Shown: one piece after another, positions 985 through 28,994 of the stretch
Numbering within the stretch: position 1 is the first letter of the stretch
How the letters are laid out: every line of letters starts with the position of its first letter
From: a virus
Reading direction: 5' to 3' (one strand)
Length of the DNA: 42,736 bases
Virus record (IMG/VR): IMGVR_UViG_3300013093_000089
Location: 1 to 42,736 of that record
The notes under the pieces: generated by a model
What the model saw: only the letters and a program-made list of their open reading frames with translations
Database searches by the model: none
What the model was told of the DNA's origin: nothing
Made by a program: the position numbers and the translations under genes

Positions 985-1052
985 GCTGATAGTTCCTTCA
1001 TAACTGTTAGAACGGATGGATGTTGGCGCATCGCGATCCGTACTAATATTTA

Positions 1053-1707: not shown

Positions 1708-1718
1708 ATATACCTACA

Positions 1719-1985
1719 TCATTCATATATATCGACAGAATTGGCATATGATGTAAACCCGTTTTCTTTAATGACACGCAATACGTTATTCACGCGACCT
1801 ATCAGCTCATCTTTGTGTGATATTAGATAGATATTCTTGTTGCTTTCTCGTGCCATCTTTTTCAATATAGCTAGGCTGTTCTCTACACCAGCACTGTCCA
1901 TGCCGCTGTCTATTAGCTCGTCTATGAACAGCAGGTTGATGGGCTGATATAGATTTTCCCACATATCACGGAATGCCCAGCTCAA
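1719..1985 (-). CDS. 46: gp46 recombination nuclease, C-terminal part (frameshifted)
   Basis: This frame encodes the missing C-terminal ATPase lobe of the gp46 subunit at 1994-3496. Reading the same frame upstream to about 2030 adds FDNLSRGERNRLILSLSWAF, the ABC signature region (LSRGER). The annotated part then gives INLLFIDELIDSGMD, the Walker B motif with its following acidic residue and D-loop, and LISHKDEL, the H-loop. These pieces lack meaning without the N-terminal Walker A half, and the ATG at 1985 lies inside the domain rather than at a true start. The two frames join exactly (aspartate, phenylalanine, aspartate, asparagine) if one extra A is added at 2028-2030 on the plus strand. 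This is therefore one gene with a frameshift, not two genes. Confidence 0.85.
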   Translation of the reverse strand: MSWAFRDMWENLYQPINLLFIDELIDSGMDSAGVENSLAILKKMARESNKNIYLISHKDELIGRVNNVLRVIKENGFTSYANSVDIYE

Positions 1986-1993
1986 CGAAAGTA

Positions 1994-5468: not shown

Positions 5469-6332
5469 ATGTCAGATGATTTTTTTGGTGGCGTAGGCGA
5501 TGCTGTTAGCGATGTTGTCGGAACTATAACCCAAACAGCGGGTGATGTTTTCAATGCTTCAGCTAATGTGTTAGGTACTGGCATATCTGCTTTCCTAAAT
5601 GCCGCAGTCGGCACGAATCCAAATTTACTTATCAGTAGTTACCGTTCTCAAGGCATACCTTCTGGTGCGGAATCTTACTATGACTACTCTCCGGCATCTG
5701 CACAATTTTCGACTAGCCCGCAAGAAATGGATTGGCGTGTTAGGATATCATGTCCGCTCATTTATGAGAGCCAGATATTCCAACCTCTTGCTACTACATC
5801 CGGTATGATCTTTCCATATACTCCTACAATCACTATGAGCAGCACCGCTAACTATCAAAATATTGATACTGCCCATACTAACTATCCGTTTTATGCTTAT
5901 AAAAACAGCCAGGTAGATGAAATACAGATAGCAGGACAGTTTACAGTACAAGATCAAGGAGAAGCAACATACTGGTTATCGATGATGCATTTCTTGAGGA
6001 CAGTTACTAAGATGTATTTTGGTCAAGGCCCTAATCTAGGAAATCCACCACCTATATGTACTTTGAATGGATATGGTGATTTTGTATACAATAATGTCTC
6101 TGTCGTTGTAAAACAGTTTAACATAACGATGTCTAAAGATGTTGATTATATTGCAGCATACATAGGAGAAGGCAGTACTGATGGATCTAATCTAAGTTAT
6201 GTTCCTACCTTATCAGATGTTACGGTAACGTTATTACCGGTCTACAGCAGGACACAGATAAAATCTTTTAATCTAGATGCATTCGCTAAAGGCCAGCTAG
6301 TAGTGGGACCAGATGGAAAAGGATTTATCTAA
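5469..6332 (+). CDS. Baseplate tail-tube cap-like structural protein (gp48/gp54-like)
   Basis: A 287-aa virion protein, first in the late operon. Its N-terminal 50 residues are Gly/Ala/Val-rich (DAVSDVVGTITQTAGDVF) and could form a flexible or amphipathic segment. The core contains MDWRVRISCPLIYESQIFQP, FPYTPTITMSSTANY and EATYWLSMMHFLRTVTKMYFG, a pattern I associate with tail-tube initiator or cap proteins of marine T4-like phages. Position beside gp53 and the hub genes supports a role where the tail tube joins the baseplate. The assignment to gp48 rather than gp54 is not certain. AAGGAG lies 7 bases before ATG. The stop overlaps the next start by one base. Confidence 0.55.
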   Translation: MSDDFFGGVGDAVSDVVGTITQTAGDVFNASANVLGTGISAFLNAAVGTNPNLLISSYRSQGIPSGAESYYDYSPASAQFSTSPQEMDWRVRISCPLIYESQIFQPLATTSGMIFPYTPTITMSSTANYQNIDTAHTNYPFYAYKNSQVDEIQIAGQFTVQDQGEATYWLSMMHFLRTVTKMYFGQGPNLGNPPPICTLNGYGDFVYNNVSVVVKQFNITMSKDVDYIAAYIGEGSTDGSNLSYVPTLSDVTVTLLPVYSRTQIKSFNLDAFAKGQLVVGPDGKGFI

Positions 6333-6637
6333 TGGCGAAATATTCTCCGTCTAGTCCTTGGTACTCTACCACCCAGAATCAATTATATCTTGAGGTATGG
6401 CAACCCAGGCCAATTCCAGCAGCTTCTGATGATTTCCAATATGTTATACAACCACAGTATAACTATAGGCCAGATTTATTAGCATATGACATATACGGTA
6501 ATCCTCATCTATGGTGGGTTTTTACACAGCGCAATGTTGATATATTATTTGATCCAATCTATGATTTTAGGGCTGGTATAACTATACAGTTGCCAAAGAA
6601 AACAGCATTGCTCTCATATTTAGGACTAGGTGGATGA
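6332..6637 (+). CDS. 53: Baseplate wedge subunit gp53
   Basis: A 101-aa protein matching the gp53 wedge family, which helps join wedge to hub. The hallmark is YRPDLLAYDIYGNPHLWWVF near residues 46-65, followed by QRNVDILFDPIYDF, where the Tyr-Gly-Asn-Pro and tryptophan pair are conserved. It is shorter than T4 gp53 (about 196 aa), as is usual in marine relatives. The start overlaps the previous stop by one base, and its TGA overlaps the ATG of the hub gene, so the three are translationally coupled. Confidence 0.85.
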   Translation: MAKYSPSSPWYSTTQNQLYLEVWQPRPIPAASDDFQYVIQPQYNYRPDLLAYDIYGNPHLWWVFTQRNVDILFDPIYDFRAGITIQLPKKTALLSYLGLGG

Positions 6638-11343: not shown

Positions 11344-11784
11344 ATGGCAACACAAGGTTATGACAATCTCCGCATAGGACCCAAAAGCAATACACCAGCT
11401 GTAAAGGCATTTACTAGCGGTTCGTATAAGGGATTCAGTACGGTAAATGAAAGCACAAAAAGTGTAGCTTTGTATGACCTGGAGCTTATCAAACAAGACC
11501 TGATCAACAATTTCCACATACGCAAGGGCGAGAAACTAGAAAATCCAGAATTTGGAACAATCGTGTGGGACATGTTATTTGAACCGCTAACTGCACAGGC
11601 TAGGGAACTGATAGTAAATGATGTTACTACGATCGTAAATTCCGATCCCAGGACAAAGATGATCAAAACTGTAGTGACACAAGTTGAACAGGGATTGCAG
11701 ATAGAGATGACCATGCTCTATCTACCCTACAATATACAAGAAACTATGCAGTTCACGTTTGATCAAACAAATAACTTCGTTTAA
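11344..11784 (+). CDS. 25: Baseplate wedge subunit gp25
   Basis: A 146-aa member of the gp25/GpW lysozyme-like fold family that links the wedge inner ring and nucleates sheath assembly. Residues ~41-70 read VALYDLELIKQDLINNFHIR followed by KGEKLENPEFGT, and then WDMLFEPLT, the family's conserved core including the EFG turn. A short palindrome (GTTTAGGTAAAC) lies just before the start, and the gap to gp5 is 27 bases. It is between gp5 and gp6, the usual place in marine T4-like genomes. Confidence 0.92.
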   Translation: MATQGYDNLRIGPKSNTPAVKAFTSGSYKGFSTVNESTKSVALYDLELIKQDLINNFHIRKGEKLENPEFGTIVWDMLFEPLTAQARELIVNDVTTIVNSDPRTKMIKTVVTQVEQGLQIEMTMLYLPYNIQETMQFTFDQTNNFV

Positions 11785-11837: not shown

Positions 11838-14800
11838 ATGTCAGTAACAACACGACAGAATAATCTATTTTTAGCAGAAGATTGGAAAACCATATACCAA
11901 ACCTTCACGAATGCGGATTTTACCAGCTACGATTTTGAGAACATACGCCGGGTGATGATCGGGTATATCAGGGAAAACTTTCCTGAAGATTTCAACGATT
12001 ACATTGAATCAAGTGAATACCTTGCACTTATAGATCTCATCGCATTCCTTGGACAAAGCCTTGCCTTCCGCATCGACCTAAACGCACGAGAAAACTTCCT
12101 AGAACTGGCAGAACGTAGAGAAAGCATACTACGTCTAGCACAGCTTCTGAGTTATAACGCCAAAAGGAATGTCTGTGCTAGTGGTTTGTTGAAGATTGAA
12201 TCTATATCAACTACTGAAGAAGTGATAGATGCTACCGGAAGGAATCTATCCAACATAGAAATTTTGTGGAACGACAATACTAACAGCAATTGGTTTGACC
12301 AATTCACAAAGGTAATGAATGCAGCATTAGTTTCTGAGCTAGAATTTGGAAATCCAAAAGCTAGTGATACAGTAAACGGAATATATTCTGAACAGTATAC
12401 ACTCAACAGCAACATACCTACAGTTCCTGTATTTCCTTTTTCCAAGACTATCGATGGTTCTTCTTATGCATTTGAAGCTGTTAGCACTGCCATTTTAAAC
12501 GGTAATATAATAGAAGATACTCCAAAACAGAAAAATAATGTATCATTGTTATACCTAGATGATCTGCAGGGATATGCTAGTAATAATACTGGTTGGTTTA
12601 TGCACTTTAGACAAGGTACCACTAACCAAAATAATTTTACCATATCTAGCCCGGTTACTAATCAAATAGTCAATATAAACGATACTAACATCAATAATGA
12701 TGACGTTTGGTTATATTCTCTAGATAGTACAGGTGCAGAAAGCACGTTATGGACGCAGGTTCCTTCGGTAGTTGGTAATAGTGTGATTTATAACAGCCTT
12801 GACAAGACACTTAGGAACATATACGGAGTACAGACACTAGCTAATGATTCTGTATCACTGGTTTTTGGTGATGGAATATTCGCTAACTTACCAAAAGGCA
12901 GTTTCCGTTGTTATTACAGGACATCAAATGCTAAGACCTACACGATAAATTCCAAAGACATGAGGAACATAGTAGTCAGCATTCCTTATATCTCTAGGAC
13001 AGGATCGTCTCAGACGCTGCGGATGGTAATGAGCTTAAATGCCTCAGTGTCAAACGCATCAGCACCTGAAACAAACGATGAGATAAAAATAAATGCTCCT
13101 GCAACCTACTATACACAAAATAGGATGATAACCGGTGAAGATTATAACCTTGCTCCTTTGAATGTAAGCCAGAGTATAGCAAAGGTAAAAAGTGTCAATC
13201 GTATATCCAGCGGGATCAGCAAGAATTTTGATCTGATAGATGCTAGCGGCAACTATAGTTCAACTAGCGCATTCTGCACCGATGGTATAATATACAGAGA
13301 AGAAGTTTTAGAACAATTTAATTTTTCTTTTAATACTAGAACCGACATATCTGAGATAATAATAAACCAAATAGAACCTGTGATAGCTTTAAACAGCACT
13401 AGAGATTTCTACTACGAAAAATACAATAACATATTGTTTACAGATCTAAATCCAACTTTTGCTATAGGTACTAGCGGGTATAATCAGACTACTGGCTACA
13501 TAGCAAATAGTTCAGATAACACACCGTTTGCTGTAGGAACATATACTGGAAGTAATCTAAAATATATCGAACCTGGTGCCCTAGTAAAGTTTACTCCGCC
13601 AGCAAACAAGTATTTTACAGCAGCGGGAAAGATCACAACGGTTCCTACAGCTACAACCACTGATCGTTTGTGGACTAAAGTAATATCAGTGGTAGGTGAC
13701 GGAACAGCAAGTGGGTCAGGCCTACTGTCAACTGGAGTTGGTCCCATCACTGTAGGATATAACATACCTGCCGGAGCAATAGTCAGCCGTGTGATACCAA
13801 AATTCATAACTTACCTATCATCAGATCTACAGTCATCGATGGTAGAGCTGATTTTCAATTATCAGACTTTTGGATTGCGTTATGATATGAACACAAGAAC
13901 TTGGCAAATAGTACAGAATCGCAATCTAAATTTCATATCGCCGTGGAGCCTAGCAAACTCTGGTGATAACAGCGGCCAGAAATTAGACAGCAGCTGGCTT
14001 ATAGCTTTTGAAACAGACGGAAGCACATATACAGTCAGTTATGGGGGTTTAGAATATTATTTTGAATCTGTAGCAGAAAATAGGTTCTATTTTGATGGTA
14101 CACGCAAGATATACGATTCTACTACTAGCAGTATACAGAAAGACAACATATCTGTATTGAAATTTAACACATTACCTGGAACTGCGACAGGATTTGGTGT
14201 TGATTATAAATGGAAGATAATAGATACTGTACTAGGACAAGACGGTTATGCTAGCACAAAGACGGTAAAGATAACATTTAATGATTCTAACGACGACGAT
14301 ATAGCCGATAATCCAGATGCATTTAATATAATATCGATTGATCCATCTAATCCCTCTAATTTAGATCGTTATATATTCTTTGAAAAGTATATAACAGATA
14401 GTTACACTGATGATTTTAGGTATGTTTCTAATGATAACAACATGTTCTTGATATATGATTCGGAACAGAGTATCATTAGTCTATCATCATTTACTGATGG
14501 ACAACTGTTCTATTTTTATGTTCCAAACATAGTAAAAGTCTATAACGCTGCTTCGAGCACACTTACTATCACAAATGATTATTATGCCGCAGTTGGCAGG
14601 AGTGATCTCTATTTCCATTACCTGCATAACGCAGATTCAACTATCAGGATAGATCCTAGTGCTAGCAATATAATAGACATTTATATACTGACAAATGCTT
14701 ATGATACAGCTTACCGCCAGTATTTGAATGGTGATATAGACACAGAACCACTACCACTCAGCAGCACTTCTCTCATGCTTACATATGGGTCTGCGTTAGA

Positions 14801-15275
14801 TAACATAAAAAGCATAAGCGATGATGTCATATATCATCCTGTTAGGTACAAGGTATTGTTCGGTAGCAAAGCTGATGTTAGGTTGCAGGCATCTTTTAAG
14901 GTAATAAAGAATACTGAACAGGTGATAACAGACAACGAAGTAAAAACGAGGATAGTTCAGGCTATAAACGAATTTTTCTCTATAGAAAATTTTAATTTCG
15001 GAGATACGTTTTATTTCTCAGAGCTATCTGCATATGTGATGTCAAAACTATCACCATATATAACCACCTTCTTGATAGTTCCATCTAGCTCTAACCAAGT
15101 ATTTGGTAGCCTTCAACAGATAACATCGTCACCTAACGAGATATTTGTAAGTGGGGCTACTACTGCTGACATACAGATAATACAGGCTGTTACAGCTGCG
15201 CAAATAAATGCACAAGGAAATATAGTGACAAGTTCGGTACAAGACATAATTTCAAGTAATATACAGAGTTCGTAA
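11838..15275 (+). CDS. 6: Baseplate wedge subunit gp6, enlarged
   Basis: A 1145-aa protein of the gp6 / baseplate J family, which forms the inner ring of the baseplate. The N-terminal 120 residues carry the conserved block WKTIYQTFTNADFTSYDFEN, YIESSEYLALIDLIAFLGQS and RENFLELAERRESILRLAQLL. Near residues 1030-1100, KTRIVQAINEFFSIENFNFG and FYFSELSAYVMSKLSPYI match the family C-terminus. It is much longer than T4 gp6 (660 aa). The extra length is in the middle, with TSGYNQTTGYIANSSDN and several beta-rich, Asn/Ser/Thr-rich segments that may be surface-exposed insertions. It is followed after 18 bases by the giant gene. Confidence 0.9.
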   Translation: MSVTTRQNNLFLAEDWKTIYQTFTNADFTSYDFENIRRVMIGYIRENFPEDFNDYIESSEYLALIDLIAFLGQSLAFRIDLNARENFLELAERRESILRLAQLLSYNAKRNVCASGLLKIESISTTEEVIDATGRNLSNIEILWNDNTNSNWFDQFTKVMNAALVSELEFGNPKASDTVNGIYSEQYTLNSNIPTVPVFPFSKTIDGSSYAFEAVSTAILNGNIIEDTPKQKNNVSLLYLDDLQGYASNNTGWFMHFRQGTTNQNNFTISSPVTNQIVNINDTNINNDDVWLYSLDSTGAESTLWTQVPSVVGNSVIYNSLDKTLRNIYGVQTLANDSVSLVFGDGIFANLPKGSFRCYYRTSNAKTYTINSKDMRNIVVSIPYISRTGSSQTLRMVMSLNASVSNASAPETNDEIKINAPATYYTQNRMITGEDYNLAPLNVSQSIAKVKSVNRISSGISKNFDLIDASGNYSSTSAFCTDGIIYREEVLEQFNFSFNTRTDISEIIINQIEPVIALNSTRDFYYEKYNNILFTDLNPTFAIGTSGYNQTTGYIANSSDNTPFAVGTYTGSNLKYIEPGALVKFTPPANKYFTAAGKITTVPTATTTDRLWTKVISVVGDGTASGSGLLSTGVGPITVGYNIPAGAIVSRVIPKFITYLSSDLQSSMVELIFNYQTFGLRYDMNTRTWQIVQNRNLNFISPWSLANSGDNSGQKLDSSWLIAFETDGSTYTVSYGGLEYYFESVAENRFYFDGTRKIYDSTTSSIQKDNISVLKFNTLPGTATGFGVDYKWKIIDTVLGQDGYASTKTVKITFNDSNDDDIADNPDAFNIISIDPSNPSNLDRYIFFEKYITDSYTDDFRYVSNDNNMFLIYDSEQSIISLSSFTDGQLFYFYVPNIVKVYNAASSTLTITNDYYAAVGRSDLYFHYLHNADSTIRIDPSASNIIDIYILTNAYDTAYRQYLNGDIDTEPLPLSSTSLMLTYGSALDNIKSISDDVIYHPVRYKVLFGSKADVRLQASFKVIKNTEQVITDNEVKTRIVQAINEFFSIENFNFGDTFYFSELSAYVMSKLSPYITTFLIVPSSSNQVFGSLQQITSSPNEIFVSGATTADIQIIQAVTAAQINAQGNIVTSSVQDIISSNIQSS

Positions 15276-15293: not shown

Positions 15294-18200
15294 ATGGCAA
15301 ACAATACTCAAAATGAATTTCCACTTCCATTAGGATTAGAAGACCAGAGCAAGAGGCAGACAGCTCGCCATCTGCCTAAATTTTTCAGGACAACTGCTAA
15401 TCAGAAGTTTTTAGGAGGAACCCTAGATCCGCTAACACAGCCCGGAAAGCTAGGTAGGATAAATGCCTATGTAGGTAGGCAGGATATACCAAACTATTCT
15501 TTTGACGATAATTATCTACAAGAGACGTCTACTCCTAGGCAATATTATCAGCTAGAACCGTCATTTGTCTATCAAGACCCTAAGAGCCAAAATGTTGAAT
15601 GGTATGCTGACTATATTGATTACATCAATAGTTTAAGATATTTTGGAGCACCAGTTGCTAATCATAGCAAGTTAAACAAAGCAGAAGCATACGCTTGGAA
15701 CCCACACATAGATTGGGACAAGATAGTAAATTTCAGAGAATATTATTGGTTACCAACAGGTCCTGACCCCATAACAATCTATGGACATCTAGAGTCAACT
15801 GTGTCGACTTTTTCTGTCACTGAACAGAATGAAGGTGATCATGTAGCCTACATCTTTAGTCCTGACGGGCTAACAGCGAATCCTAGACTAACACTCTATA
15901 GAGGAATAACATATAATTTCAATATCAGCACACCAAATAAATCTCTGGCTATCAAGACACTGCCTACGGTAGGAGCAGGTGATTTCTACAATATTGGAGT
16001 TAGTTCTCAGGGCGTAACAGCCGGACTTATGACATTTACTGTTTCGTCAGATGCCCCTAATCTCCTCTATTATATAGATCAGAACGACCCAAATTCTTAT
16101 GGTATGATTGATATAAAAGATATAACAGCTGATTCTGTCCTAGATGTTGAATCTGAAATAATTGGTAAGAAAAATTATACCAGCAGCAGCGGAATATCTT
16201 TTATAAATGGCCTCAAAGTACAGTTTATAGGTCAAGTGACTCCTTCAAAATATGTAGGAACATCGTGGTATGTAGAAGGTGTTGGTAGGAAGATACGTTT
16301 GGTTAGCGTCCTGGATATAGAATCTCCAGCTATATATGGAACAGCATTAGACGTTCCGTTTGATGAACAACCTTTTGATTCTCTTCCTTGGGAGTCTGCT
16401 AGCAGCTATCCAGGACAGAAAGATTATCTAACGATCAATAGGTCCTCAAACGACCTCAATAGTTGGTCTAGGACCAACAGGTGGTTCCATCTAAATGTGC
16501 TAGAACTAACAGCTACAGCCAATAACCAGATAGCATCTCCAGATCAAACAGCTAGAGCAACACGACCAATTATCGAATTTGATCCGGATCTAAAATTATT
16601 CAATCATGGTTGGAATTACAAGAAAGACATAGATCTAGTCGATACTTTTACTACAGATGCTTTCTCTATGATAGAAGGATCGATCGGTTATGTAGTTGAT
16701 GAAGAATCCCTGCTTTCTGGTTACCGAGTTCTATTTCTAGCTGATACTGATACTATGGTTTACGGAAAAGTATTCACAGTAAATTTTATATTCAATGCTA
16801 ATGAAAACAAGACACAGATAACCTTACAAGAAGCAGATGACGCTGCACCTAACGAAGGAGAAAATGTGTATGTCACAAAAGGCAACAGTGCAGGATCATC
16901 TTATCATTACACTGGTAGTGTTTGGTCGATCTCTCAAAAGAAATCATCAGTAAATCAAGCACCTCTATTTGATCTCTATGATGAGGAAGGAATTAGTTTC
17001 AGTGATCCTATACAATATCCAAAAAGTTCTTTTGCAGGTAATAGGATATTTGGATATAAGATAGGTTCCGGTACCGTTGACACAGAACTAGGATTCTCCT
17101 TATCTTATGCAAATATTGATAATGTTGGTGATATACAGCTTGAGTTTGATCTGCATGACAAGAATTGGACATATCAGACAGGAACTACTTTATCAACAGT
17201 AAACTCTTTCTCTGGGTTTGTTAGGATAACCAATACTGATGGTAGTTTCTATTACAGCAATGGTTGGACGCAGACTAACAAGAAACTTGAACAGAACGTA
17301 GCACGTATACTACGCATAACTGCTCCGACTTATACTGTTCCTATTGACGTATTTGATAATAGCGGTTCGATAAATGACCTAACTGTTAGGGTGTATGTAA
17401 ACAACGTAAAGAGGACAGATATATCGCCTAGCATAATAAACGGAGTAACATATATAACTTTTGGTACTATGTTAGCAGTTGATGATAAGGTAGTCTATAA
17501 GGTAAAATCTAAAGCAAACAAGAATGCTAGAGGTTATTACGAGATACCATTGAATTGGCAGAATAATTCCACAAATCAGTTGCTCTCTTATTTTACATTA
17601 GGTGAAGTAACAGATCATGTTGGTAGCATAATCGAAAACGTTCCAAATTTTGCAGGTAATTTTCCAGGAAATGGCAATCTATCAAACATAGGTGACATTT
17701 CTTCATATGGTAGAAAGTTCCTACAACATGCAGGACCTATGAGCTTGTCTGCATTCTTGTTAGTAGATCAACATGCTAACATAGTAAAGGCCCTAAGATG
17801 GAATTCCGGAAGGTACTCAGTATTCAAGAAAGAATTCTTACAGATAGCAGAACAGACAGCATATGATGGATCTATAGCAGAGATAGTAGATTCTATACTA
17901 CTAAGGTATTCAAACGCCAAGCACATAAACACAGATTCTTTTTATTTTTCTGATATGGCTCCATACGGACCTGCTAGTGTTAGGACATATACTGTAGTAG
18001 ATCCTAGGTTGCCTTCTTTTGTTATTGACAGTATTTTTAATCCAAAATCTCAGACAAAGAGAGCTGTCCTAATATATCTAAATGATCAGCAGCTAACCTA
18101 CGGGATAGATTTCACGTTCAGTACAGAGAATGCGTTTGTAAATGTAACGAGATCATTGGCAGTTGGTGATACTATCGTAATAAGAGATTATGCTAGCACT

Positions 18201-21200
18201 GACGGTTGTTTCATCCCATTTACACCTACTAAGCTGGGATTATATCCTAGTTATGTGCCTAGGAAATATATTGATGATACCTATGTGACTCCAACTGAAA
18301 TCATACAGGGACACGATGGTAGCATAATAAAATCTTATGGTGATTTTAGAGATGATTTAATCCTCGAGATGGAAATGAGGATCTTTAATTCTATTAGGAT
18401 CGACTACGACCCTACTATCTTTAATATAGATGATGTTGTAGGGGGTTATTACAGGCGAAATGATTTTACGAGAGCAGAGATAAACAACATACTTTCAATA
18501 GATTTCCTAAGATGGAATCTATCTCTGAATAATGATTTTAATGCAAACAATTATTATGTTGAAGACCAATCATTTACCTACAACTATAGTAATTCTCCAG
18601 CCCCTAACAGCACAGAAAATCTATATGGATATTGGAGAGGTATATACAATTATTTCTATGATACCGATAGACCACATACTTGCCCTTGGGAGATGCAGGG
18701 TTTTAAGATAAAACCAAAATGGTGGGATAACATATACGGTACAGCACCATATACTAGCGAAAACAAGATAATGTGGGACGCTATCGAAAAAGGTTTGATA
18801 AACGAGCCAGGAAATGTTAGGTTTGATTCTAGATATGCTAGATCTGGTCTATCTAAGTATATACCGGTCGACGACTCAGGGAACTTACTGAGTCCATTAG
18901 ATAGCAACCTAGTGCAGAGCTTTTCTCTCGTGAATGCCCAAGGACCATTTTCTTTCGGTGATCAAGCCCCAGTTGAAACAGCATGGAGACGCTCTAGCGA
19001 ATATCCGTTCTCTGTAATGGTATTGATGTCTATCTTAAACGGAGCAGAATTCATAGGAAAATTCTGGGATAGATTTAGATTGCAGAGGAATATCGCCGGA
19101 CAGATGTATTATGTTGACACTGGCAATAAGATAAATCCTGCATCTTTAGTATTTTCTGATGTTCCTCTAGGCAGTAGCACTAGTCCAAACGTTCCTAGGA
19201 CCTTTACCTGTGGAATAGCTAACATCATCGACGAATATGTAGGCAGTGAAAAGGGAGTAAACATAGATCAGTACAAGAACTATCTATCAAATATACAACC
19301 AAAGCTGTCACACAGGATGGGAGGTTTCACTAGCAAAGATAAGATCAAAGTATTGCTTGATAGCCGCAGTCCTAATGCTAGTGGTAGCATATATCTCCCT
19401 TCAGAAAATTATCAGGTATTCTACAATAAAAGTGTTCCAGTTGATACTGTAACCTACAGCGGAGTTGTGGTAGAAAAGAAAAGCAATGGATTTACTGTAA
19501 GAGGATATGATAGCGAGAAGAGTTATTTTGAAATATATCCTGCTAGGGTGAGCCAAGCAGATCCTAGCATCAACATTGGTGGAGTTTCAGAACAGTTTTA
19601 TGAATGGACACCGGGTAGTTATTATACTGTAGGCCAGATAATAAAAGTCTCAGAAAGATATTATAGAGCTATCGTTGGCAACACAGCTTCGACGGATTTC
19701 AATACAGATATAAAGAAATGGGCACCACTGTCTAGCTTGCCTTTAGTTGGCGGCGTGACTGCCGTGCTAAGAACTAAATTTGTGAAAACACCAACACGGA
19801 TAAACTACGGTACACTTTTCTTAGATGTGCAATCTGTGGTAGATTTCTTGTTATCATACCAAGAGAGATTAAAAGATTGGGGATTCTCGTTCGATGATTA
19901 TAGTCAAGAACTTGAGGTTCCTTTAGACTGGAACACGAGTGCTAAAGAATTTATGTTTTGGTCGATACAGAGATGGTCCGAAGGATCAGTCATAACACTT
20001 AGTCCATCTGCAGGTGGAGTAAACTTTACCCCTAAGATAAATGCTGTAGCAGATGACCTAACATCTGACTTTTATAACTATAGTATATTCAGGGCAGATG
20101 GATCACCTATAAGATCTAACCAGACAAACATATATCGAAACAATGGAGGTTTCATAATAAAGCCATTGTCTCAGAATAACGATGGGGTATTTTTTGTCAG
20201 GGCCACGCTTGTTTACAAAGAACATGTATTGTTGTTGGATAATATTTCTCAGTTTAATGACGTAGTATATGATGTCGTTCCTGGATACAGGCAAGGTCGC
20301 GTTAGGCTAGTAGGATTTAAAACAACCATGTGGGATGGAGGGTTTACTAGTCCGGGGTTTGTTTATGATGAAGCTTTGGTACAGAATTGGCAACCTAACA
20401 CAGATTACAACATAGGGGATGTTGTAAACTACAAAGGTTATTATTTTACTGCATTGTCTAATGTAGTAGGTTCTTCGACTTTTGATTATAACTATTGGAG
20501 GCAGCTAACCACAGCTCCGACACCTAAATTGATACCTAATTTTGATTATCAGACAGAGCAGTTCCGAGATTTTTATAATCTAGATGCCAGTATATATGAC
20601 GAAAACCAGCAGAATCTAGCGAGGCACTTGGTCGGATATCAAGATAGGACTTACCTCGATGATATAATCATCGATAGCGTTTCGCAGTATAAGTTCTATC
20701 TAGGATATATCAAAGAAAAAGGAACCATGAACAGCATTTCTAAGCTGTTTAATGCACTGCGAGGAGCCGGTTATAGCAGTATAGACGTCATGGAAGAATG
20801 GGCGTTCAAGGTAGGAGACTATGGTGCATCTGATGCTTATTCTGAGATAGAGATATCATTAGACGAGACTAAGGTCAGATCAAATCCACAGAACATCGTT
20901 CTAACGACTACTTCTACAGAGTTTAATGATCTTTCTATATACAATATTACGGCTAACATGATAGCGATAAAACCCAGCAGCTATGATAGCAATCCGTTTA
21001 GCATGGCTACTATAGATACTTCTCTCAATGACTATGGGATATTCAAATATAGTGTAGCCGGCTACGTCAAAGAAGAACAAGTTGATCATATAGTATATGA
21101 TTATTCTACGTTATTAAACTATGATCTTACGCTTTTGAGAGAGAAAGATAAGATATGGGTAGGGTACACACCAAACAATGATTGGAATGTCTTTGAGTAT

Positions 21201-24200
21201 CTAGCTACAGGAATAGTCATAACCAACTGGTCTATATCTATAAACACTATAGCTCTAGTCTGCAGCCAGATACCTACGAACATAGCAATAAATGACATAA
21301 TCGCTATTACTAACTTGGGAGTACTAGACGGCTTATATACTGTCCTGAACACCTATAACAACATAATAGAAGTTTTCACATATAATAGCAATGTCTATAA
21401 GCTACCAGAGACGACAACTAGCGGACTGCTGTTCAAGCTTGAATCTGTTAGATATAAGAACGAATCGGCGATTTCTCTGAGGCGTTACAATAATACTAAT
21501 ATACGCGGTGAAACCATATGGTTAGATGATGACTCGACAGGTAAATGGGCGGTATTGGAAAACTCAGATGCATTCACAACAAGCAGTTTGACTCCAGCTG
21601 CAATATCATCTTCAAACAACCAACAGTATGGATATGAAGTGAAGATAAGCGGTGACGGCAAGATGATGTTTGTTGGAGCCATAAACAATGCTAGCGGAAA
21701 GGTATTTGTTTACAATAAACCAAGCGTTGGAAATTGGACATTGAAACAGCTGATACCTATGCCTGTTGATGTTATATCACCGGCAGGTAACGAACAGTTT
21801 GGAACTAGCATAGATGTCAATTATGATGGATCTATGCTAGTAGTAAGTGCCCCTAATTCTAGCAACCTCCTAACTACAACTTCTAATGGGCTCAATATAG
21901 GAAGTGCTGTTGGAACGCCTAGCGGATTATCTAAGCAAGGTGTAGTACATGTTTACACCTATGACACATATAACCTAATTTATGAAAGAGTGATATCAAT
22001 AGCATCAAAATCGCCTGTTAGTAATGAAAGATTTGGCAGCAAAGTAAAGATCGGTAGTGATGGTGTGAACACTTGGCTGTTTGTAGCTAATAGGCACTAC
22101 AATAACGACCAAGGAGCTGTACAGATATTTAAAAATACGGCAGGTGTTTGGAGTAATGGCTCGCAGGATTATCTAAATTTCGGCTATTCGATAACAACGA
22201 ACCCTAGTGGTTCGTTCAATCCTTTCTCACAGACAGGCGGAATGTATGGATATGAAATTGACTGCACTAGCACAGTTGATAAAGTAATAGTCAGTGCTCC
22301 GTTCCTAGGAGATGGATCTGTATTTGTTTTCAAGAGAGTAGGACTTTTATTCTTCCTAATGCAGGTGATAGACAGTAACACTATATCAACTGTTACAGCA
22401 GATAATCTATTAGGTAGTGTAAGCTATCTCAAAGCAAATGATCTCTTTGGGTACAGCCTGATAGTGAGAGACGATATACTGTTAGTAGGATCACCAAACA
22501 ACGACAACGGAGCAAGCAATCTAGGTGCAGTCTACGTGTTTGACACTACTGATGCCTCGCCGGACTACAGGCTAAGGCAGATGATATCTCCACCTGTTAT
22601 CTCAGATAATGAGAGGTTTGGAACCAAGATTTCTATAAACCCCAACGGAAACATATTAGCTATCTCGTCTATCGGTGGAGACAGTATATTTGATACAACG
22701 TTTGATGTATATTCAAAGAGATTAGTTTTTACGCAATCCTCACCTAGAGATTATACACTAGATCCCAGCAGCACAGCTAATAAGTCTGCTACTACATTTG
22801 ATAACAGTTCTACTAGATTCTATGACAAGACATTATATGCTGGAGCAGTATATGTCTATAATAGGATAGCTAATGATTTTATATACGGAGATAGGCTCAA
22901 TTCGGATCAGCTACTATCATCGAGCGATAATTTTGGTTCGGCTATATCTGTATCAAATGATTGCATTTCTGTAGGTTCTTCGGGGCGAGCATCTGGAAGT
23001 TATACTTTCGGAATGGTATTTGTCTTTAGTTATTCTGTACCAAGCTGGAACACGATAGCAACAGAATCGCAGATGGTTGACATATCTAAGTTTAAAAAAT
23101 CATTCATTTATAACACAGAAAAGAATTCCATGATAGAAACCCTGGATTTCTTAGATCCAGCTAAAGGTCGTATTCCCGGAACAGCTGATCAAGAGATAAC
23201 CTATCAGACCTATTATGATCCAGCGATATATCAGTATTCAGATGTAACAGATAGAGCGATAGATACTAGTGAAATATGGACTGATGATCATGTTGGTGAA
23301 GTTTGGTGGGATCTATCCACAGTTAAATTTATGTGGTATGAACAAGGTGATAGTTCATACAGGACTAATAATTGGGGGAGGATATTTCCGGGATCTAGTG
23401 TTGACGTATATGAATGGGTAGAATCATCTTATCTGCCCAGCGTTTACACTAAACTAGCCGATACAGCAGATGGATTGTCGCAGGGAATAAGCGGTACACC
23501 GAAGTTTTCAGATGATTTTACATATAGTTCAAAGTACAAATATGATAAGATAAGCGGAATACAAACTACCCTATACTATTTCTGGGTTAAAAATAAAGTG
23601 ATAGTTCCTAATGTATCATTTAGGAACATAAGTGTAAATGATGTAACTAATTTAATACTTGATCCTATATCTTATGGTTATCAATTTGTGGCAATAACTG
23701 GACAGAATAGTCTCTCGCTAACAAATATAAAGAATAAGCTAGTTGAATCTGATGTTGCTCTAAATCTGCAATTTTATACGATTGATAACACAGATTTAAT
23801 GTTACATAGAGAATTTGCTCTAATAGCTAAAGATGATCCATATGCTAAAATCCCCAAGAATCTAGAAATAAAATGGTTCGATAGTCTAGTTGGCAGCACT
23901 GTAAATGGTTACGCAGTTCCGGATATAAGATTGAGTGCAAAGCAGAGATTAGGTACAGCTAATTCACCTAGACAATCTTGGTTCTCTAACAGGTTTGAAG
24001 CCCTAAAGCAGCTGATAGAATATGTAAATTCTATACTGTTGATAAACCCAGTTGTTGATAGCATCAGTTTCAAAAATCTAGATTTAAAAGATCCTCCACC
24101 TAGCATCCTTTCTGGAGACATTGATACGAAGATTGATGTCATCTACCAGCTGAATTTCATAGGAACCGCGCAGATATCGCAGGCAGTGCTTGCTGCAACG

Positions 24201-27200
24201 ATAGTTGACGGTAAGTTTGTTGGCATATCTATAGTAGATTCGGGATACGGTTATGGCAGGAATAAACCCTATGCTGATGACGAATATGGAAATCCTATAA
24301 GCTGGTACGGTCCAAATGTTACTATCACTGGTACAGGCACCGGTGCTAAGATACAGACAGTTATAAACAGTCAAGGAAAAGTTATAGAGGCTATAATAGT
24401 TAAACCGGGTAACGATTACGATGATAATCTAACACAAGTAACTGTTAGGCCATATGCTGTCTTGATCAATAGCGACTCCGATGCAAACGGCGGATGGAGC
24501 GTGCAGACGTGGAATTCAAACAGGAATGAATGGATACGCTCCCATACGCAATCATATGATGTTACAAGATATTGGAATCTCGCAGATTGGTATGAACAGG
24601 GATATGGTCTAGAATCAGATATAAGTTTCTTGATCAATTCTACATATGATCTCAATGGTTTAGGAGCTAAAATAGGTGAGATAGTAAAGATAAAAGATGC
24701 TGGTTATGGAAAATGGCTGTTATTGCAGAGGGTAAACCAAACCAACAGTTCGGATTTTACGAACGACTATCAGGTAGTAGGCAAGCAGGATGCAACTATA
24801 CAGTTTTCTTCGATGCTCTATGATCCCAAACAGGGAAGCGGATTTGATAATATTTCTAGTTTTGATACAGGATTATTTGACCAGTCAGCCACTACTGAAC
24901 TTAGGATAATACTAACAGCAATACGTGACGATATACTGATAAATGATCTGAGGATCGAATATATACGTTCTTTCTTTAATAGCATCTATTATGTTTTTAG
25001 CGAACAGCATTATGTTGATTGGGCGTTTAAGACCAGCTTCTTAAAGATAAATCATGTGGTAGGATCGTTAAATCAGAGACCAGTATCGCAGAGCGATGTG
25101 TTAGATAGCTATCAGTCTTATATAGAAGAAGTGAAGCCCTATAAGAGCAAGATAAGGGAATTTGTTAGCACATATGGGCAGAAAGATCAGCCTCTAGATT
25201 TTGCTAATCAAGTAGTCAGCGATTTTGACTTACAGCCTTATTATAATAATGATACTGGTACAGTTGATCAGATAACGACAGAATCGTCGATAGTCAATTC
25301 GTATCCGTGGAAGAATTGGTTAGATAATAATATCTATAAGTTAGTTGACATAGTAATAAAAACCGGAGGTAAAAATTACGCATCTCAACCTCAGGTTATC
25401 ATATCGGGCGGCGGCGGAACAGGCGCAAAAGCTTCTGCTTATATCGCACAGGGATCTGTTTATAAGATAGTGATAGATGATCCGGGGGTCGGTTTTATAT
25501 CAGCACCTAATATCTATATAAGCGGAGGAAATGGAGATATAGATGCCGATAGGGCCAAAGCATATGCGATAATAGGCGACGGTTTAGTGAGGACTAATCT
25601 GATTGGGATGAAGTTTGACAGATATTCTCCAGCTTATGAAGTCAGTTCTTTCAAATTTACAGATATGTTTAGTGGCGACGGAAGCACAGTCAAATGGAAA
25701 CTCACGTATGCTCCCGAAGTAGAAAAATCTAAATTTTATGTAGTAGTTGACGATCTAGTACTGTACGGCAACCAGTTTAGCATATCTATCGTAGAAACCC
25801 TGCATGACACATATACAGCACTAGAAGGTTATATTACCTTTGCTGTACCTCCTGCTTCACCAGCATCGTCTAATGTTAGCAACATAATAATAACCTATGA
25901 TAAGAATATAAGACTGTATTCGGCAGCTGATCGCATAGATTATGCCTATAATCCGACCAGCGGTCGTTACGGCAAAGATCTAGGATTACTGATGACAGGG
26001 GTTGATTATGGTGGCGTGCAGATCAGCAGCTTAGATTTTGAGATATCGGGAGGATGGGACGTTACACCGTGGGGTAGCAGTTCCTGGGATAACGTACCCA
26101 ACAGCAATGACGACTCGGTGTCACTGGTTTCAGAGCTCAGCGGATCTTCATCGCATATAACAGCTACCGGATCAAATAGCCAGTATACTATAACTGTTTC
26201 TTCTGCTAGCGGTTTAACAGACGGTATGGCAGTTTTTGGACATGGAATAAACACTTTTGCTAGGATAGCGACAGGTGGTAGGAATGGAAATGTGCTGACA
26301 CTAACCGCAGCTAATTCTGGAACAGTTTCTGGAACAGTTACGTTTGCGACAGTCTTTACTTTAGGATTTACTCCTGCACTAAATGATGTGATAAATGTCT
26401 ATCTAAATGGCGTTAGGATAGATGATCCTAATTACGGAACACAAGCAACTATTACTAATGCGGATGCGATGATGAAGTCGATCATAGGGGACGGAGTCAC
26501 TGATACTATAAATGTACCAAGCACGATATCATTGTCGCCTGGAGATTTGATAACCTTCCGCAAGAGCACTAGTGATGGTAGTATATTACCGACTGATCTA
26601 AGCGCAGTCGATTCATTCATATCTGGTGGTGATTTAGGATATTCTACCGCCAAAGGTATAAATGCAGATGATATAGTGATAGATGGAGATTGGTTCAATA
26701 CTACAGACACTAGCCACGGACCAGAAGAGCTAGTACAAGGTCAAGTAGTAGATTCCGTTGATATAAAAGTTTATCATACACCATCATCTGGTGGTCCGAA
26801 GATAAACATAAACAGCTACATCGGAGATGGATCAACTACTGTATATCCTATAAATTCTGTTCCGGGAACCGACGCGGGCGTGATAGTCATAGTTGACAAA
26901 TCATTTGTAACAGCCACGATTGATCATCTAAATTCAAAGATAATCATGCCTTCTGCTCCGCTACCAAATGCCAAGATAAGCATAATGACTATCGACACAG
27001 CGGGTTACGATATACTCGATAAAGAAATTTATATAGGTGATGGAAACACTACTGATTATATGACAGCAGCCCGTTATTCAAAGACAAACGGTATATTAGA
27101 TATAACGGCATTTGTTACCGTTGACGGTATGCCTATAGATTATATGATAATTGAAAGCGATATCACACATGGTGTTGCTGGGGACGTGATTGTGAGATTA

Positions 27201-28994
27201 CCAGAAGCTGTTAGCGTAAATTCTGTCATACAAATAATGATCTTCCAAGGGTCTACTCAGAAATGGAGCCAAGTCAACCAGCAGCAGATACCAATAGTAC
27301 AAGGGCAGTCATCTTACACGATAAATCCGATGCCAGCAGATAACGGCCCCCTAGAAATCATGGTATTTGTCTGTGCAGATTCTGATTTCTTGCAGGCACC
27401 AGAATGCAAGAGTTTCGCATATGATGGTAATGCTTTCGTTATAGTTGATCCTAGATATAGTGGCCACGCACTGTCTCCTTCGGACGTTGATGTATATAAA
27501 AATGGTATCAAACTAACAACATCTGTAGATTATGTAGTAAACGGAACACAGAACGAAATAACAATGAATCCTTCTAGTGTTGCATTTGGAGACGACATAG
27601 TAATAGCACTTTATGTATTTGCTGATTATAGGATAATCGGTGATCAGCTAGTTTTAGGAAATGGATATTCTACTAGAAACAAGAACTATCTAAATATAAC
27701 AACTTTTACTAATCATAATATCTTGAAGATAAGATCAGTAGAGGAAGGATTCTTCTTTAATGTTGGGTTTGATGCTAGTTCGTATGATGCGATAGGATTT
27801 GATACGCAGAGCTCAATAGTAAATGCTAGTAGTATATTTGATCTACCTAGAGAAGTAGATGATATAGCTGGAATTTTTGTATCTCTAAATAGGACGCTGC
27901 TGAAACCAAATTTTGACTATATTGTATTAGACAATAGATCTCAAATCAAACTGTTGTTACCTGATTCGTTAAAAGGTGATGATTATGTTGAGATAATTTC
28001 TTTCAATCCTCAGGTAGTAACTCCTAGTTTTGGATTTAAACAATTCAAAGATATGACTAATAGGATGATATACAAGAGATTGGATGATGCTAAATCTACC
28101 GTACTTGCAGCTGATCTCGCATACTATGATACCACGATAACCGTAGAGAACGCAAACAATCTAGAAATGCCAAATCCTTCTCTAAACCTTCCAGGAGTCA
28201 TAGAAATAGACAATGAGAGGATAGAATATTTCACGATGACAGGTAACGTCCTTGGACAGATAAGGAGAGGTACTCTTGGGACAGGAATAAACAGTTCGGT
28301 TGCTGCCGGTACTCTTGTTAGAGATATAGGTGTGATGGAAACAGTTCCATATACCGATAACGAAAGAAAATACACGTATTATGGTGATGGAACTACTAAC
28401 TTCTTTGGGCTTGATTTTGTACCCACACTGAACACAGCCAGTGTTTCATACGAAATAGTAGCTAATGGGACCAACGGAAATACCTTTATAACAGTCACTG
28501 ACACTACTAACCTATCAGTAGGTATGTTTGTAAGAGAAGCAAACGGAATACAAGATGGAACTAAGATAGTTTCTATAATAGGTAGCACATTGAAATTGAG
28601 CAAATCTATAACAAACAATCTGTCAAATGCTAGTCTATATGTTTCTAATTGGTATAGGAGCACTATATCTAACCAATACGGACAGAATGATCAGCTCGAG
28701 GTATTTGTAGCAGGACAGAGGTTATGTAAAGTTCCTGTAACTGTCTATGATCAATCTCTAGGTCAGGATAGTTACAGAGGACTAGCTGACAGGACTATAG
28801 AAGCTGAGTTTTCAGTAAACGGCATTGATCAAGGAGTCACTATCACTTCTATCCCAGCAGCTGGGGAGATAGTAGTAATAGTGTACAAGACTGGTAAATT
28901 ATGGCAAGATATAAATGAAAATACAGCACTAGTCTATAGCAAATCAGACATAGCGAAGTTCTTAACCTCAGCTACGGTGAGTTTACCTAAATAA
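15294..28994 (+). CDS. Giant 4566-aa gp7-like baseplate/virion protein
   Basis: One open frame of 13.7 kb, about four times the length of T4 gp7 (1032 aa). The first ~170 residues (RHLPKFFRTTANQKFLGGTL, YQLEPSFVYQD, AYAWNPHIDWDKIVNFREYY) match the conserved start of the very large structural proteins that follow gp6 in marine T4-like phages. Modules: two CBM5/12-like segments (~1437-1480 and ~1699-1740, each with W, Y-x-x-G, Y-x-A/Y-Y-x-A and W-x-x-L); seven FG-GAP repeats (2112-2590); two Gly-rich GTGAK repeats (~2980-3045 and ~3350-3415); five GDG-T modules (nt ~25675, 26485, 26821, 27037, 28384); and a late IEIDNERIEY turn module. It likely forms the outer wedge and adhesin surface. No TAG or frameshift interrupts it. 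Start ATG 15294 follows GGATAGG. Confidence 0.8.
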   Translation: MANNTQNEFPLPLGLEDQSKRQTARHLPKFFRTTANQKFLGGTLDPLTQPGKLGRINAYVGRQDIPNYSFDDNYLQETSTPRQYYQLEPSFVYQDPKSQNVEWYADYIDYINSLRYFGAPVANHSKLNKAEAYAWNPHIDWDKIVNFREYYWLPTGPDPITIYGHLESTVSTFSVTEQNEGDHVAYIFSPDGLTANPRLTLYRGITYNFNISTPNKSLAIKTLPTVGAGDFYNIGVSSQGVTAGLMTFTVSSDAPNLLYYIDQNDPNSYGMIDIKDITADSVLDVESEIIGKKNYTSSSGISFINGLKVQFIGQVTPSKYVGTSWYVEGVGRKIRLVSVLDIESPAIYGTALDVPFDEQPFDSLPWESASSYPGQKDYLTINRSSNDLNSWSRTNRWFHLNVLELTATANNQIASPDQTARATRPIIEFDPDLKLFNHGWNYKKDIDLVDTFTTDAFSMIEGSIGYVVDEESLLSGYRVLFLADTDTMVYGKVFTVNFIFNANENKTQITLQEADDAAPNEGENVYVTKGNSAGSSYHYTGSVWSISQKKSSVNQAPLFDLYDEEGISFSDPIQYPKSSFAGNRIFGYKIGSGTVDTELGFSLSYANIDNVGDIQLEFDLHDKNWTYQTGTTLSTVNSFSGFVRITNTDGSFYYSNGWTQTNKKLEQNVARILRITAPTYTVPIDVFDNSGSINDLTVRVYVNNVKRTDISPSIINGVTYITFGTMLAVDDKVVYKVKSKANKNARGYYEIPLNWQNNSTNQLLSYFTLGEVTDHVGSIIENVPNFAGNFPGNGNLSNIGDISSYGRKFLQHAGPMSLSAFLLVDQHANIVKALRWNSGRYSVFKKEFLQIAEQTAYDGSIAEIVDSILLRYSNAKHINTDSFYFSDMAPYGPASVRTYTVVDPRLPSFVIDSIFNPKSQTKRAVLIYLNDQQLTYGIDFTFSTENAFVNVTRSLAVGDTIVIRDYASTDGCFIPFTPTKLGLYPSYVPRKYIDDTYVTPTEIIQGHDGSIIKSYGDFRDDLILEMEMRIFNSIRIDYDPTIFNIDDVVGGYYRRNDFTRAEINNILSIDFLRWNLSLNNDFNANNYYVEDQSFTYNYSNSPAPNSTENLYGYWRGIYNYFYDTDRPHTCPWEMQGFKIKPKWWDNIYGTAPYTSENKIMWDAIEKGLINEPGNVRFDSRYARSGLSKYIPVDDSGNLLSPLDSNLVQSFSLVNAQGPFSFGDQAPVETAWRRSSEYPFSVMVLMSILNGAEFIGKFWDRFRLQRNIAGQMYYVDTGNKINPASLVFSDVPLGSSTSPNVPRTFTCGIANIIDEYVGSEKGVNIDQYKNYLSNIQPKLSHRMGGFTSKDKIKVLLDSRSPNASGSIYLPSENYQVFYNKSVPVDTVTYSGVVVEKKSNGFTVRGYDSEKSYFEIYPARVSQADPSINIGGVSEQFYEWTPGSYYTVGQIIKVSERYYRAIVGNTASTDFNTDIKKWAPLSSLPLVGGVTAVLRTKFVKTPTRINYGTLFLDVQSVVDFLLSYQERLKDWGFSFDDYSQELEVPLDWNTSAKEFMFWSIQRWSEGSVITLSPSAGGVNFTPKINAVADDLTSDFYNYSIFRADGSPIRSNQTNIYRNNGGFIIKPLSQNNDGVFFVRATLVYKEHVLLLDNISQFNDVVYDVVPGYRQGRVRLVGFKTTMWDGGFTSPGFVYDEALVQNWQPNTDYNIGDVVNYKGYYFTALSNVVGSSTFDYNYWRQLTTAPTPKLIPNFDYQTEQFRDFYNLDASIYDENQQNLARHLVGYQDRTYLDDIIIDSVSQYKFYLGYIKEKGTMNSISKLFNALRGAGYSSIDVMEEWAFKVGDYGASDAYSEIEISLDETKVRSNPQNIVLTTTSTEFNDLSIYNITANMIAIKPSSYDSNPFSMATIDTSLNDYGIFKYSVAGYVKEEQVDHIVYDYSTLLNYDLTLLREKDKIWVGYTPNNDWNVFEYLATGIVITNWSISINTIALVCSQIPTNIAINDIIAITNLGVLDGLYTVLNTYNNIIEVFTYNSNVYKLPETTTSGLLFKLESVRYKNESAISLRRYNNTNIRGETIWLDDDSTGKWAVLENSDAFTTSSLTPAAISSSNNQQYGYEVKISGDGKMMFVGAINNASGKVFVYNKPSVGNWTLKQLIPMPVDVISPAGNEQFGTSIDVNYDGSMLVVSAPNSSNLLTTTSNGLNIGSAVGTPSGLSKQGVVHVYTYDTYNLIYERVISIASKSPVSNERFGSKVKIGSDGVNTWLFVANRHYNNDQGAVQIFKNTAGVWSNGSQDYLNFGYSITTNPSGSFNPFSQTGGMYGYEIDCTSTVDKVIVSAPFLGDGSVFVFKRVGLLFFLMQVIDSNTISTVTADNLLGSVSYLKANDLFGYSLIVRDDILLVGSPNNDNGASNLGAVYVFDTTDASPDYRLRQMISPPVISDNERFGTKISINPNGNILAISSIGGDSIFDTTFDVYSKRLVFTQSSPRDYTLDPSSTANKSATTFDNSSTRFYDKTLYAGAVYVYNRIANDFIYGDRLNSDQLLSSSDNFGSAISVSNDCISVGSSGRASGSYTFGMVFVFSYSVPSWNTIATESQMVDISKFKKSFIYNTEKNSMIETLDFLDPAKGRIPGTADQEITYQTYYDPAIYQYSDVTDRAIDTSEIWTDDHVGEVWWDLSTVKFMWYEQGDSSYRTNNWGRIFPGSSVDVYEWVESSYLPSVYTKLADTADGLSQGISGTPKFSDDFTYSSKYKYDKISGIQTTLYYFWVKNKVIVPNVSFRNISVNDVTNLILDPISYGYQFVAITGQNSLSLTNIKNKLVESDVALNLQFYTIDNTDLMLHREFALIAKDDPYAKIPKNLEIKWFDSLVGSTVNGYAVPDIRLSAKQRLGTANSPRQSWFSNRFEALKQLIEYVNSILLINPVVDSISFKNLDLKDPPPSILSGDIDTKIDVIYQLNFIGTAQISQAVLAATIVDGKFVGISIVDSGYGYGRNKPYADDEYGNPISWYGPNVTITGTGTGAKIQTVINSQGKVIEAIIVKPGNDYDDNLTQVTVRPYAVLINSDSDANGGWSVQTWNSNRNEWIRSHTQSYDVTRYWNLADWYEQGYGLESDISFLINSTYDLNGLGAKIGEIVKIKDAGYGKWLLLQRVNQTNSSDFTNDYQVVGKQDATIQFSSMLYDPKQGSGFDNISSFDTGLFDQSATTELRIILTAIRDDILINDLRIEYIRSFFNSIYYVFSEQHYVDWAFKTSFLKINHVVGSLNQRPVSQSDVLDSYQSYIEEVKPYKSKIREFVSTYGQKDQPLDFANQVVSDFDLQPYYNNDTGTVDQITTESSIVNSYPWKNWLDNNIYKLVDIVIKTGGKNYASQPQVIISGGGGTGAKASAYIAQGSVYKIVIDDPGVGFISAPNIYISGGNGDIDADRAKAYAIIGDGLVRTNLIGMKFDRYSPAYEVSSFKFTDMFSGDGSTVKWKLTYAPEVEKSKFYVVVDDLVLYGNQFSISIVETLHDTYTALEGYITFAVPPASPASSNVSNIIITYDKNIRLYSAADRIDYAYNPTSGRYGKDLGLLMTGVDYGGVQISSLDFEISGGWDVTPWGSSSWDNVPNSNDDSVSLVSELSGSSSHITATGSNSQYTITVSSASGLTDGMAVFGHGINTFARIATGGRNGNVLTLTAANSGTVSGTVTFATVFTLGFTPALNDVINVYLNGVRIDDPNYGTQATITNADAMMKSIIGDGVTDTINVPSTISLSPGDLITFRKSTSDGSILPTDLSAVDSFISGGDLGYSTAKGINADDIVIDGDWFNTTDTSHGPEELVQGQVVDSVDIKVYHTPSSGGPKININSYIGDGSTTVYPINSVPGTDAGVIVIVDKSFVTATIDHLNSKIIMPSAPLPNAKISIMTIDTAGYDILDKEIYIGDGNTTDYMTAARYSKTNGILDITAFVTVDGMPIDYMIIESDITHGVAGDVIVRLPEAVSVNSVIQIMIFQGSTQKWSQVNQQQIPIVQGQSSYTINPMPADNGPLEIMVFVCADSDFLQAPECKSFAYDGNAFVIVDPRYSGHALSPSDVDVYKNGIKLTTSVDYVVNGTQNEITMNPSSVAFGDDIVIALYVFADYRIIGDQLVLGNGYSTRNKNYLNITTFTNHNILKIRSVEEGFFFNVGFDASSYDAIGFDTQSSIVNASSIFDLPREVDDIAGIFVSLNRTLLKPNFDYIVLDNRSQIKLLLPDSLKGDDYVEIISFNPQVVTPSFGFKQFKDMTNRMIYKRLDDAKSTVLAADLAYYDTTITVENANNLEMPNPSLNLPGVIEIDNERIEYFTMTGNVLGQIRRGTLGTGINSSVAAGTLVRDIGVMETVPYTDNERKYTYYGDGTTNFFGLDFVPTLNTASVSYEIVANGTNGNTFITVTDTTNLSVGMFVREANGIQDGTKIVSIIGSTLKLSKSITNNLSNASLYVSNWYRSTISNQYGQNDQLEVFVAGQRLCKVPVTVYDQSLGQDSYRGLADRTIEAEFSVNGIDQGVTITSIPAAGEIVVIVYKTGKLWQDINENTALVYSKSDIAKFLTSATVSLPK
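21627..23040 (+). repeat. Seven FG-GAP repeats (predicted beta-propeller) inside the giant gene
   Basis: Seven FG or YG blade starts occur at residues 2112, 2169, 2247, 2318, 2385, 2442 and 2547 of the 4566-aa protein. Each has the pattern (F/Y)G-x-x-(V/I)-x-(I/V), then a -V-(V/S)-(S/G)-AP/SP strand, and a V(F/Y)V(Y/F) strand at the end, for example FGTSIDVNYDGSMLVVSAP and GAVYVFD. Seven is the number in integrin-type propellers. Blade 6 carries an insertion of about 40 residues before its GAVYVYN strand. Confidence 0.75.

Follow-up and report, generated by a model that had tools for sequence, protein, structure and literature searches.

A predicted seven-bladed FG-GAP propeller inside a giant virion protein at the gp7 position of environmental RaK2/PA5oct-type phages

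The window, that is the whole stretch of 42,736 nucleotides of viral DNA analysed here (IMG/VR record IMGVR_UViG_3300013093_000089), carries a giant reading frame with FG/YG repeats in its interior, and the locus raises the question of what kind of protein this is and what such repeats may do in it. A sequence-only reading had described an uninterrupted frame of 4566 codons with a gp7-like N-terminus and seven FG-GAP repeats expected to form a propeller, a possible receptor-binding or scaffold module. The frame and the propeller stand, and the gp7-like N-terminus is not borne out by sequence.

The giant gene and its position among the baseplate genes

The frame occupies positions 15294..28994 on the + strand, starts with ATG, has no internal stop and encodes a putative baseplate wedge protein of 4566 aa. 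Relatives of similar full length exist, such as those in contigs L012 (4552 aa) and L058 (4443 aa), and the frame is therefore not an assembly fusion. The relatives read are from 3326 to about 5576 residues long, so that giant size is the rule in the PHROG 10938 family ('virion structural protein'), the profile of which matches four stretches of the giant protein with E=0 and 1057 bits. RaK2, PA5oct-type phages, Atu_ph07 and other jumbo phages have full-length relatives, as do dozens of IMG/VR contigs, and hundreds of environmental phages encode relatives of the protein. The first 1069 residues matched 63 phage records and residues 2603-3436 matched 57 (tblastn), with RaK2, 121Q, GAP32, CBB, PA5oct, Atu_ph07 and Phosso among the matching phages. 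CBB_236, a relative in phage CBB that lacks the propeller and whose gene identity as a relative was checked, is represented by 21 unique peptides in a mass-spectrometric analysis of virions (PMC5259590, Table 4). By homology the giant protein is a virion protein of the RaK2/PA5oct type and a member of PHROG 10938. Giant proteins at the gp7 position are present in many jumbo phages, with no known function beyond their presence in the virion, and such frames are not odd fusions; members of the family are usually of this size, and in one large clade of it the propeller is the usual condition.

The gene order in the window, gp46-gp47-gp55-structural-gp53-structural-gp5-gp25-gp6-giant, matches in the main that of RaK2 and of the PA5oct-type phage Deifobo. 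The baseplate genes lie on the + strand and encode a gp53-type wedge protein (6332..6637, phrog_7145 E 4e-27), a gp5-type hub and tail lysozyme protein (8668..11316, phrog_13211 E 4e-42), a gp25-type wedge protein (11344..11784, phrog_261 and phrog_43) and, directly upstream of the giant gene, a gp6-type wedge protein (11838..15275, phrog_10646 E 1e-287 and phrog_219 E 7e-20), the end of which is separated by 18 bases from the start of the giant frame. Downstream on the same strand are three tail-fibre-type genes (29665-31806, 31808-33796 and 33834-35426, with PHROG tail fibre or tail protein matches), whose products are possible partners. At the other end, the gp46 gene (SbcC-like, 388-3496, - strand) looks broken, with profile positions 295-848 at 1994-3496 and positions 875-951 in a separate frame at 1719-1985. 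Homing-endonuclease-like genes at 388-1089 and 1053-1493 adjoin the pieces, and an intron, a split gene or a frameshift could account for the arrangement.

The order gp25-gp6-giant gene is common to RaK2-type, PA5oct-type and Atu_ph07/Phosso phages and the window. In T4 the gene order is 6-7 and in P2 it is W-J-I, the equivalents of gp25-gp6-gp7, and the giant gene directly follows the gp6 type just as T4 gp7 and P2 gpI follow gp6/gpJ. The proposed gp7-like N-terminus finds no support at the sequence level, the T4-type gp7 profile matching none of the four large blocks of the protein. T4 gp7 was rejected as a direct sequence relative with an hhalign probability below 1% for each of the four blocks, and a narrowed core also gave nothing; the positive control, T4 gp7 against gpI, fails in the same profile comparison, and the test has therefore little power. 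A KGT motif at about residues 1805-1825 aligns with P2 gpI (P 0.003-0.005 uncorrected), this being the best of 61 windows (P 0.0037 uncorrected) and not significant after correction. P2 gpI, tried as a sequence relative, gives no more than this weak match, in a comparison in which the positive control likewise fails. Pfam and NCBIfam searches of residues 1490-2100 found no gp7/gpI family, helices such as a core bundle with two gp6 copies would need are predicted with low confidence at residues 1796-1824, and the AlphaFold2 model of residues 1490-2100 is poor (pLDDT 65, pTM 0.33), with no match below E 0.001 in a PDB fold search. The position after gp25 and gp6, together with the weak gpI-like motif near residue 1805, supports a putative gp7 role; by position the giant protein is gp7, an identity that is not demonstrable by sequence. 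Residues 166-276 (15789..16121, + strand) form a domain as in a cyanophage 'baseplate wedge tail fiber connector' (phrog_677 E 1e-8; tblastn), and this domain is also present in other cyanophage proteins (tblastn).

The propeller and the slot that it fills

The seven FG/YG repeats start at residues 2112, 2169, 2247, 2318, 2385, 2442 and 2547. Pfam FG-GAP_2 matches with an E-value of 3.8e-9 in the full chain and 6.2e-17 when residues 2085-2625 are searched alone, and a scan of 28 sequences found it in 24, among them the window, so the profile search that the sequence-only reading proposed as a check does reach FG-GAP families and bears out the repeats placed at residues 2112-2590. A propeller profile built without the window scores it with 386 bits, the highest score among 2000 shuffled versions of these residues being 8.9, and the propeller profile matches integrin alpha-4 in the PDB with an E-value of 6.4e-12. 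Residues 2085-2625 modelled by AlphaFold2 as an isolated domain, from an alignment of 28 sequences, give a mean pLDDT of 83.3 and a pTM of 0.83, and the strands of the model are listed as seven blades of four strands each, as the structure prediction of the domain alone had been expected to give. Integrin alpha chains are the top 48 Foldseek matches in the PDB (best E 5.8e-14), and in a viral library Foldseek finds numerous FG-GAP proteins from giant viruses of algae and amoebae. From the number of strands and the integrin matches we infer that the modelled blades would close into a ring. The integrin calcium motif DxDxDG is not found in residues 2085-2625, and the domain is therefore of the FG-GAP_2 type and not an integrin domain proper.

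The propeller as a whole comprises residues 2111-2590 (21624..23063, + strand). Following the strands of the model, and all on the + strand, blade 1 is formed by residues 2111-2155 (21624..21758), blade 2 by 2169-2236 (21798..22001), blade 3 by 2247-2293 (22032..22172), blade 4 by 2318-2359 (22245..22370), blade 5 by 2385-2431 (22446..22586), where Pfam places the strongest single FG-GAP_2 repeat (2381-2416), blade 6 by 2442-2535 (22617..22898), with a loop of 58 residues between strands 2 and 3 (2460-2517), and blade 7 by 2547-2590 (22932..23063).

No close copies of the propeller alone were found in viral contigs, and relatives were reached via the conserved flank. Two conserved segments on the + strand border the propeller, residues 1750-1860 to the left (20541..20873, anchor profile in 157 ORFs), which include the P2 gpI-like KGT motif, and residues 2612-2760 to the right (23127..23573, anchor profile in 159 ORFs; tblastn). 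With these flanks as anchors the content of the slot between them was read in 154 frames. The propeller profile, which the 28 training sequences match by construction, matches all of the frames except those of RaK2, Vibrio 2.275.O, Deifobo, SCTP-2, L158, L162-L170 and Atu_ph07/Phosso, and the later-fetched loci L103-L161, which are independent of the training, match it at 3e-50 or better, except L158. Among the frames where the propeller is missing, the slot has 247 residues in RaK2, 305 in Vibrio 2.275.O, 359 in Deifobo, 546 in SCTP-2 and 581 in L158. It has 711-916 residues with G-x-G-Y repeats and no propeller match in L162-L170. In Atu_ph07 and Phosso (L007 and L008) it is longer still, at about 1570 residues, again with G-x-G-Y repeats and without a match to FG-GAP. 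The repeats in all of these are of the type G-x-G-Y...P-x-V-x-I-x-G-x-G-x-G-A. A Pfam scan of the Atu_ph07 and Phosso slot gave no convincing match. A LamG-like lectin suspected by eye in the SCTP-2 slot was unsupported by Pfam and was dropped.

In a tree of the flanks a single branch, with an SH-aLRT support of 100%, separates the 88 rows with a propeller (the window and 87 environmental contigs) from those without one, corresponding to one change of state; the order of the propeller-less rows, which have long branches, is unsure. With the tree unrooted, this change may be either a gain or a loss of the propeller. Going by these alignments, the propeller fills a slot between conserved flanks, and nearly all environmental relatives examined keep it. 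The content of the slot differs between phage lineages, and one giant protein of the family is here assigned a domain of recognisable fold.

Divergence, variable loops and probable role

Pairwise distances in the propeller follow those in the flanks (Mantel r 0.90, with none of 999 permutations as high) yet exceed them at every level, for example 0.75 versus 0.55, indicating a fold that is maintained and passed down with the gene, and a sequence that changes fast. Identity to L012 is 46% in the propeller and 57-60% in the blocks up to residue 1900 and from 2611 to 3600, and five other, more distant relatives are 24-27% identical in the propeller versus 41-45% in most other blocks. Residues 1901-2095 and the C-terminal third also diverge fast, and rapid change is therefore not confined to the propeller.

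Loop cells longer than 25 residues are for the most part (156 of 206) found in the 2-3 and 4-1 loops, on the side that is the ligand face by integrin convention and not as read from model coordinates; an exception is blade 3, where 46 of 87 rows have a long 3-4 loop, which lies on the opposite side. The most variable site described here is the loop between strands 2 and 3 of blade 2, which in the window has 29 aa (residues 2187-2215, 21852..21938, + strand) and among relatives 7 to 655 residues, with at least 17 changes of size class on a tree of 84 rows. Among the nearest relatives it has 29 residues in L160 as in the window, 70 in L012 and 74 in L001. The loop often begins with CBM5/12-like sequence, which in some cases is interrupted by hundreds of further residues; in L034, L070, L126 and others, insertions of 400-650 residues appear to lie inside the CBM5/12-like module, as inserts nested three deep, and the two that were scanned gave no convincing Pfam match of their own. 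The loop is by these comparisons an apparent site of repeated gain or loss of modules, often CBM5/12-like. Integrin I domains are inserted on the ligand face between blades 2 and 3; the variable loop lies on the corresponding side, but within blade 2.

CBM5/12-like segments are also found outside the propeller, at residues 1698-1720 and about 1428-1462 (window about 19575-20453). The former (20385..20453, + strand) is below the Pfam cut-off in the window, and 18 of 30 sequences of the stretch match. The family profile finds chitin deacetylase and chitinase binding domains at 3e-4 to 0.1, and chitin-binding domains are also among the weak Foldseek matches of the model of residues 1490-2100, which was used for these matches alone because the model is poor. 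Structural regions of phage proteins often contain modules of the CBM5/12-like kind as well, a point against a binding role.

Our preferred reading, to which we give a probability of about 0.5, is that the propeller, as a module of the baseplate wedge, binds to a surface or a glycan, probably late in adsorption. The giant protein would be the gp7-position wedge component of the RaK2/PA5oct-type jumbo-phage baseplate, enlarged by many added domains, and the propeller would sit between conserved wedge segments, which occur without it in other lineages. Most likely each of the six wedges would carry it on the outer side with the loop-rich face toward the cell surface. Binding there to a glycan or a surface protein of the host might add avidity or trigger a later, irreversible adsorption step, with first recognition left to the separate fibre genes. 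A conserved scaffold with fast sequence change and a changeable carbohydrate-binding-like loop fits the expectation for a ligand-binding module better than that for a fixed joint in the structure, and the kinship to integrins, the long loops on the integrin ligand-face side and the recurring CBM5/12-like segments point the same way. This suggests a surface-recognition part built into the base of the tail. Of the two putative roles, receptor binding and scaffold, the pattern of variation favours ligand binding. Against binding count the absence of DxDxDG, the existence of RaK2 and other relatives that do without the propeller, and the inheritance of its core with the flanks, with no swapping between lineages. 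Classical receptor-binding tips are often swapped in this way. RaK2 has separate receptor-binding proteins, and the study of its adsorption complex contains no mention of the giant protein under the gene-product names searched (PMC10253068).

In the main rival reading, which we consider a real possibility and yet hold only tentatively, the propeller may be a docking platform. Located at the wedge rim, it would bind tail fibres or further proteins of the baseplate, and it would vary with these partners and not with the host surface. Propellers in general serve as protein-binding platforms, the propeller is inherited with its flanks, three fibre-type genes lie closely downstream, and the gp7 counterpart of XM1 itself holds tail spikes (PMC10457771). 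However, a fixed protein interface would hardly tolerate the many size-class changes of one loop and its CBM5/12-like sequence, and RaK2-type relatives attach elaborate fibres without any propeller. We think it unlikely that the propeller is a stable, tolerated insert with no specific ligand, which would only make the baseplate periphery larger or stiffer, in line with a general tendency of giant phage proteins; the chain does contain many other insertions of varied sizes, and unrelated sequence is found in the slot of other lineages, but insertions concentrate in particular loops, and all 88 propeller rows of one large clade keep the profile match at mean propeller distances of about 0.75, implying selection on the fold. 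That the protein is an independent giant adhesin or fibre lying after gp6 by chance would agree with its lack of detectable sequence similarity to T4 gp7 and with the occurrence of integrin-type propellers in adhesins, but is very improbable given the gene order that the window shares with RaK2-type, PA5oct-type and Atu_ph07/Phosso phages and that matches P2 W-J-I, the weak gpI motif that is best at one interior place, and the failure to find another gp7/gpI candidate between gp6 and the fibre genes.

A bolder form of the surface-binding reading, which is speculative and rather doubtful as a whole, is that of an integrin-like receptor head in the wedge, with a vertically inherited scaffold and one blade loop as the exchange site for lectin modules, such that in a large clade of uncultured jumbo phages the wedge itself, and not the detachable fibres, would sense the host surface and trigger contraction. 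If the blade-2 loop determines what the baseplate sticks to, it would offer a direct handle on cell recognition by environmental jumbo phages, and a variable ligand loop would have arisen on an integrin-type propeller in a second, independent case. A search for hosts via genome contigs gave three matches, all in marine MAG contigs. These relatives (L180-L182) are in contigs labelled as Euryarchaeota and Gammaproteobacteria MAGs, and give no evidence on the host since they are probably phage contigs binned with the MAG.

Comparison with known systems

The closest systems are RaK2 ORF070, CBB_236, GAP32_230 and the PA5oct-type proteins, which have the same position after gp25 and gp6 and whose homology to the giant protein extends to either side of the slot and covers several thousand residues. 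Unlike the window, RaK2, Deifobo (PA5oct type) and Vibrio 2.275.O have no propeller and a slot of 247-359 residues. The giant proteins of Agrobacterium phage Atu_ph07 (4449 aa) and Sinorhizobium phage Phosso (4555 aa) are of the same position and family, but differ in the long G-x-G-Y slot and in having FG-GAP propellers in other proteins instead. By fold, FG-GAP domains are also found in the Atu_ph07 'hemagglutinin' and in a protein of cyanophage S-TIM5. Gene 107 of Phosso (L011, PV764938.1 48338-57826) encodes a separate protein of 3162 residues with eight FG-GAP_2 stretches (E 4e-53) and glycine-rich domains. By these profile matches, this type of propeller appears in different giant proteins within the phage group of Phosso.

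The alpha-chain propeller of integrins (such as alpha-4 and alpha-M) also has seven blades with FG-GAP repeats and gives the best profile and fold matches, but the window propeller is only 10-16% identical to it and has neither DxDxDG nor a beta-chain partner. T4 gp7 and P2 gpI adjoin gp6/gpJ like the giant protein, and gpI may have the weak KGT motif in common with it, whereas there is no significant sequence similarity to either, and the giant protein has four times the length of T4 gp7, with the propeller and CBM-like modules in its interior. Other propellers are known from phage tails and virions, namely in the T7/SU10 nozzle, the phAss-1 structural protein, the K1F endosialidase and the CBB Kelch proteins (PMC10607447, PMC5259590). 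They belong to other families and positions, and none has been reported as a wedge FG-GAP propeller; a search of open-licence papers likewise gave no report of an FG-GAP propeller inside a phage baseplate wedge protein. New here are the propeller in the slot, its distribution on a single branch, its inheritance with the flanks, its faster divergence and the turnover of modules in the blade-2 loop.
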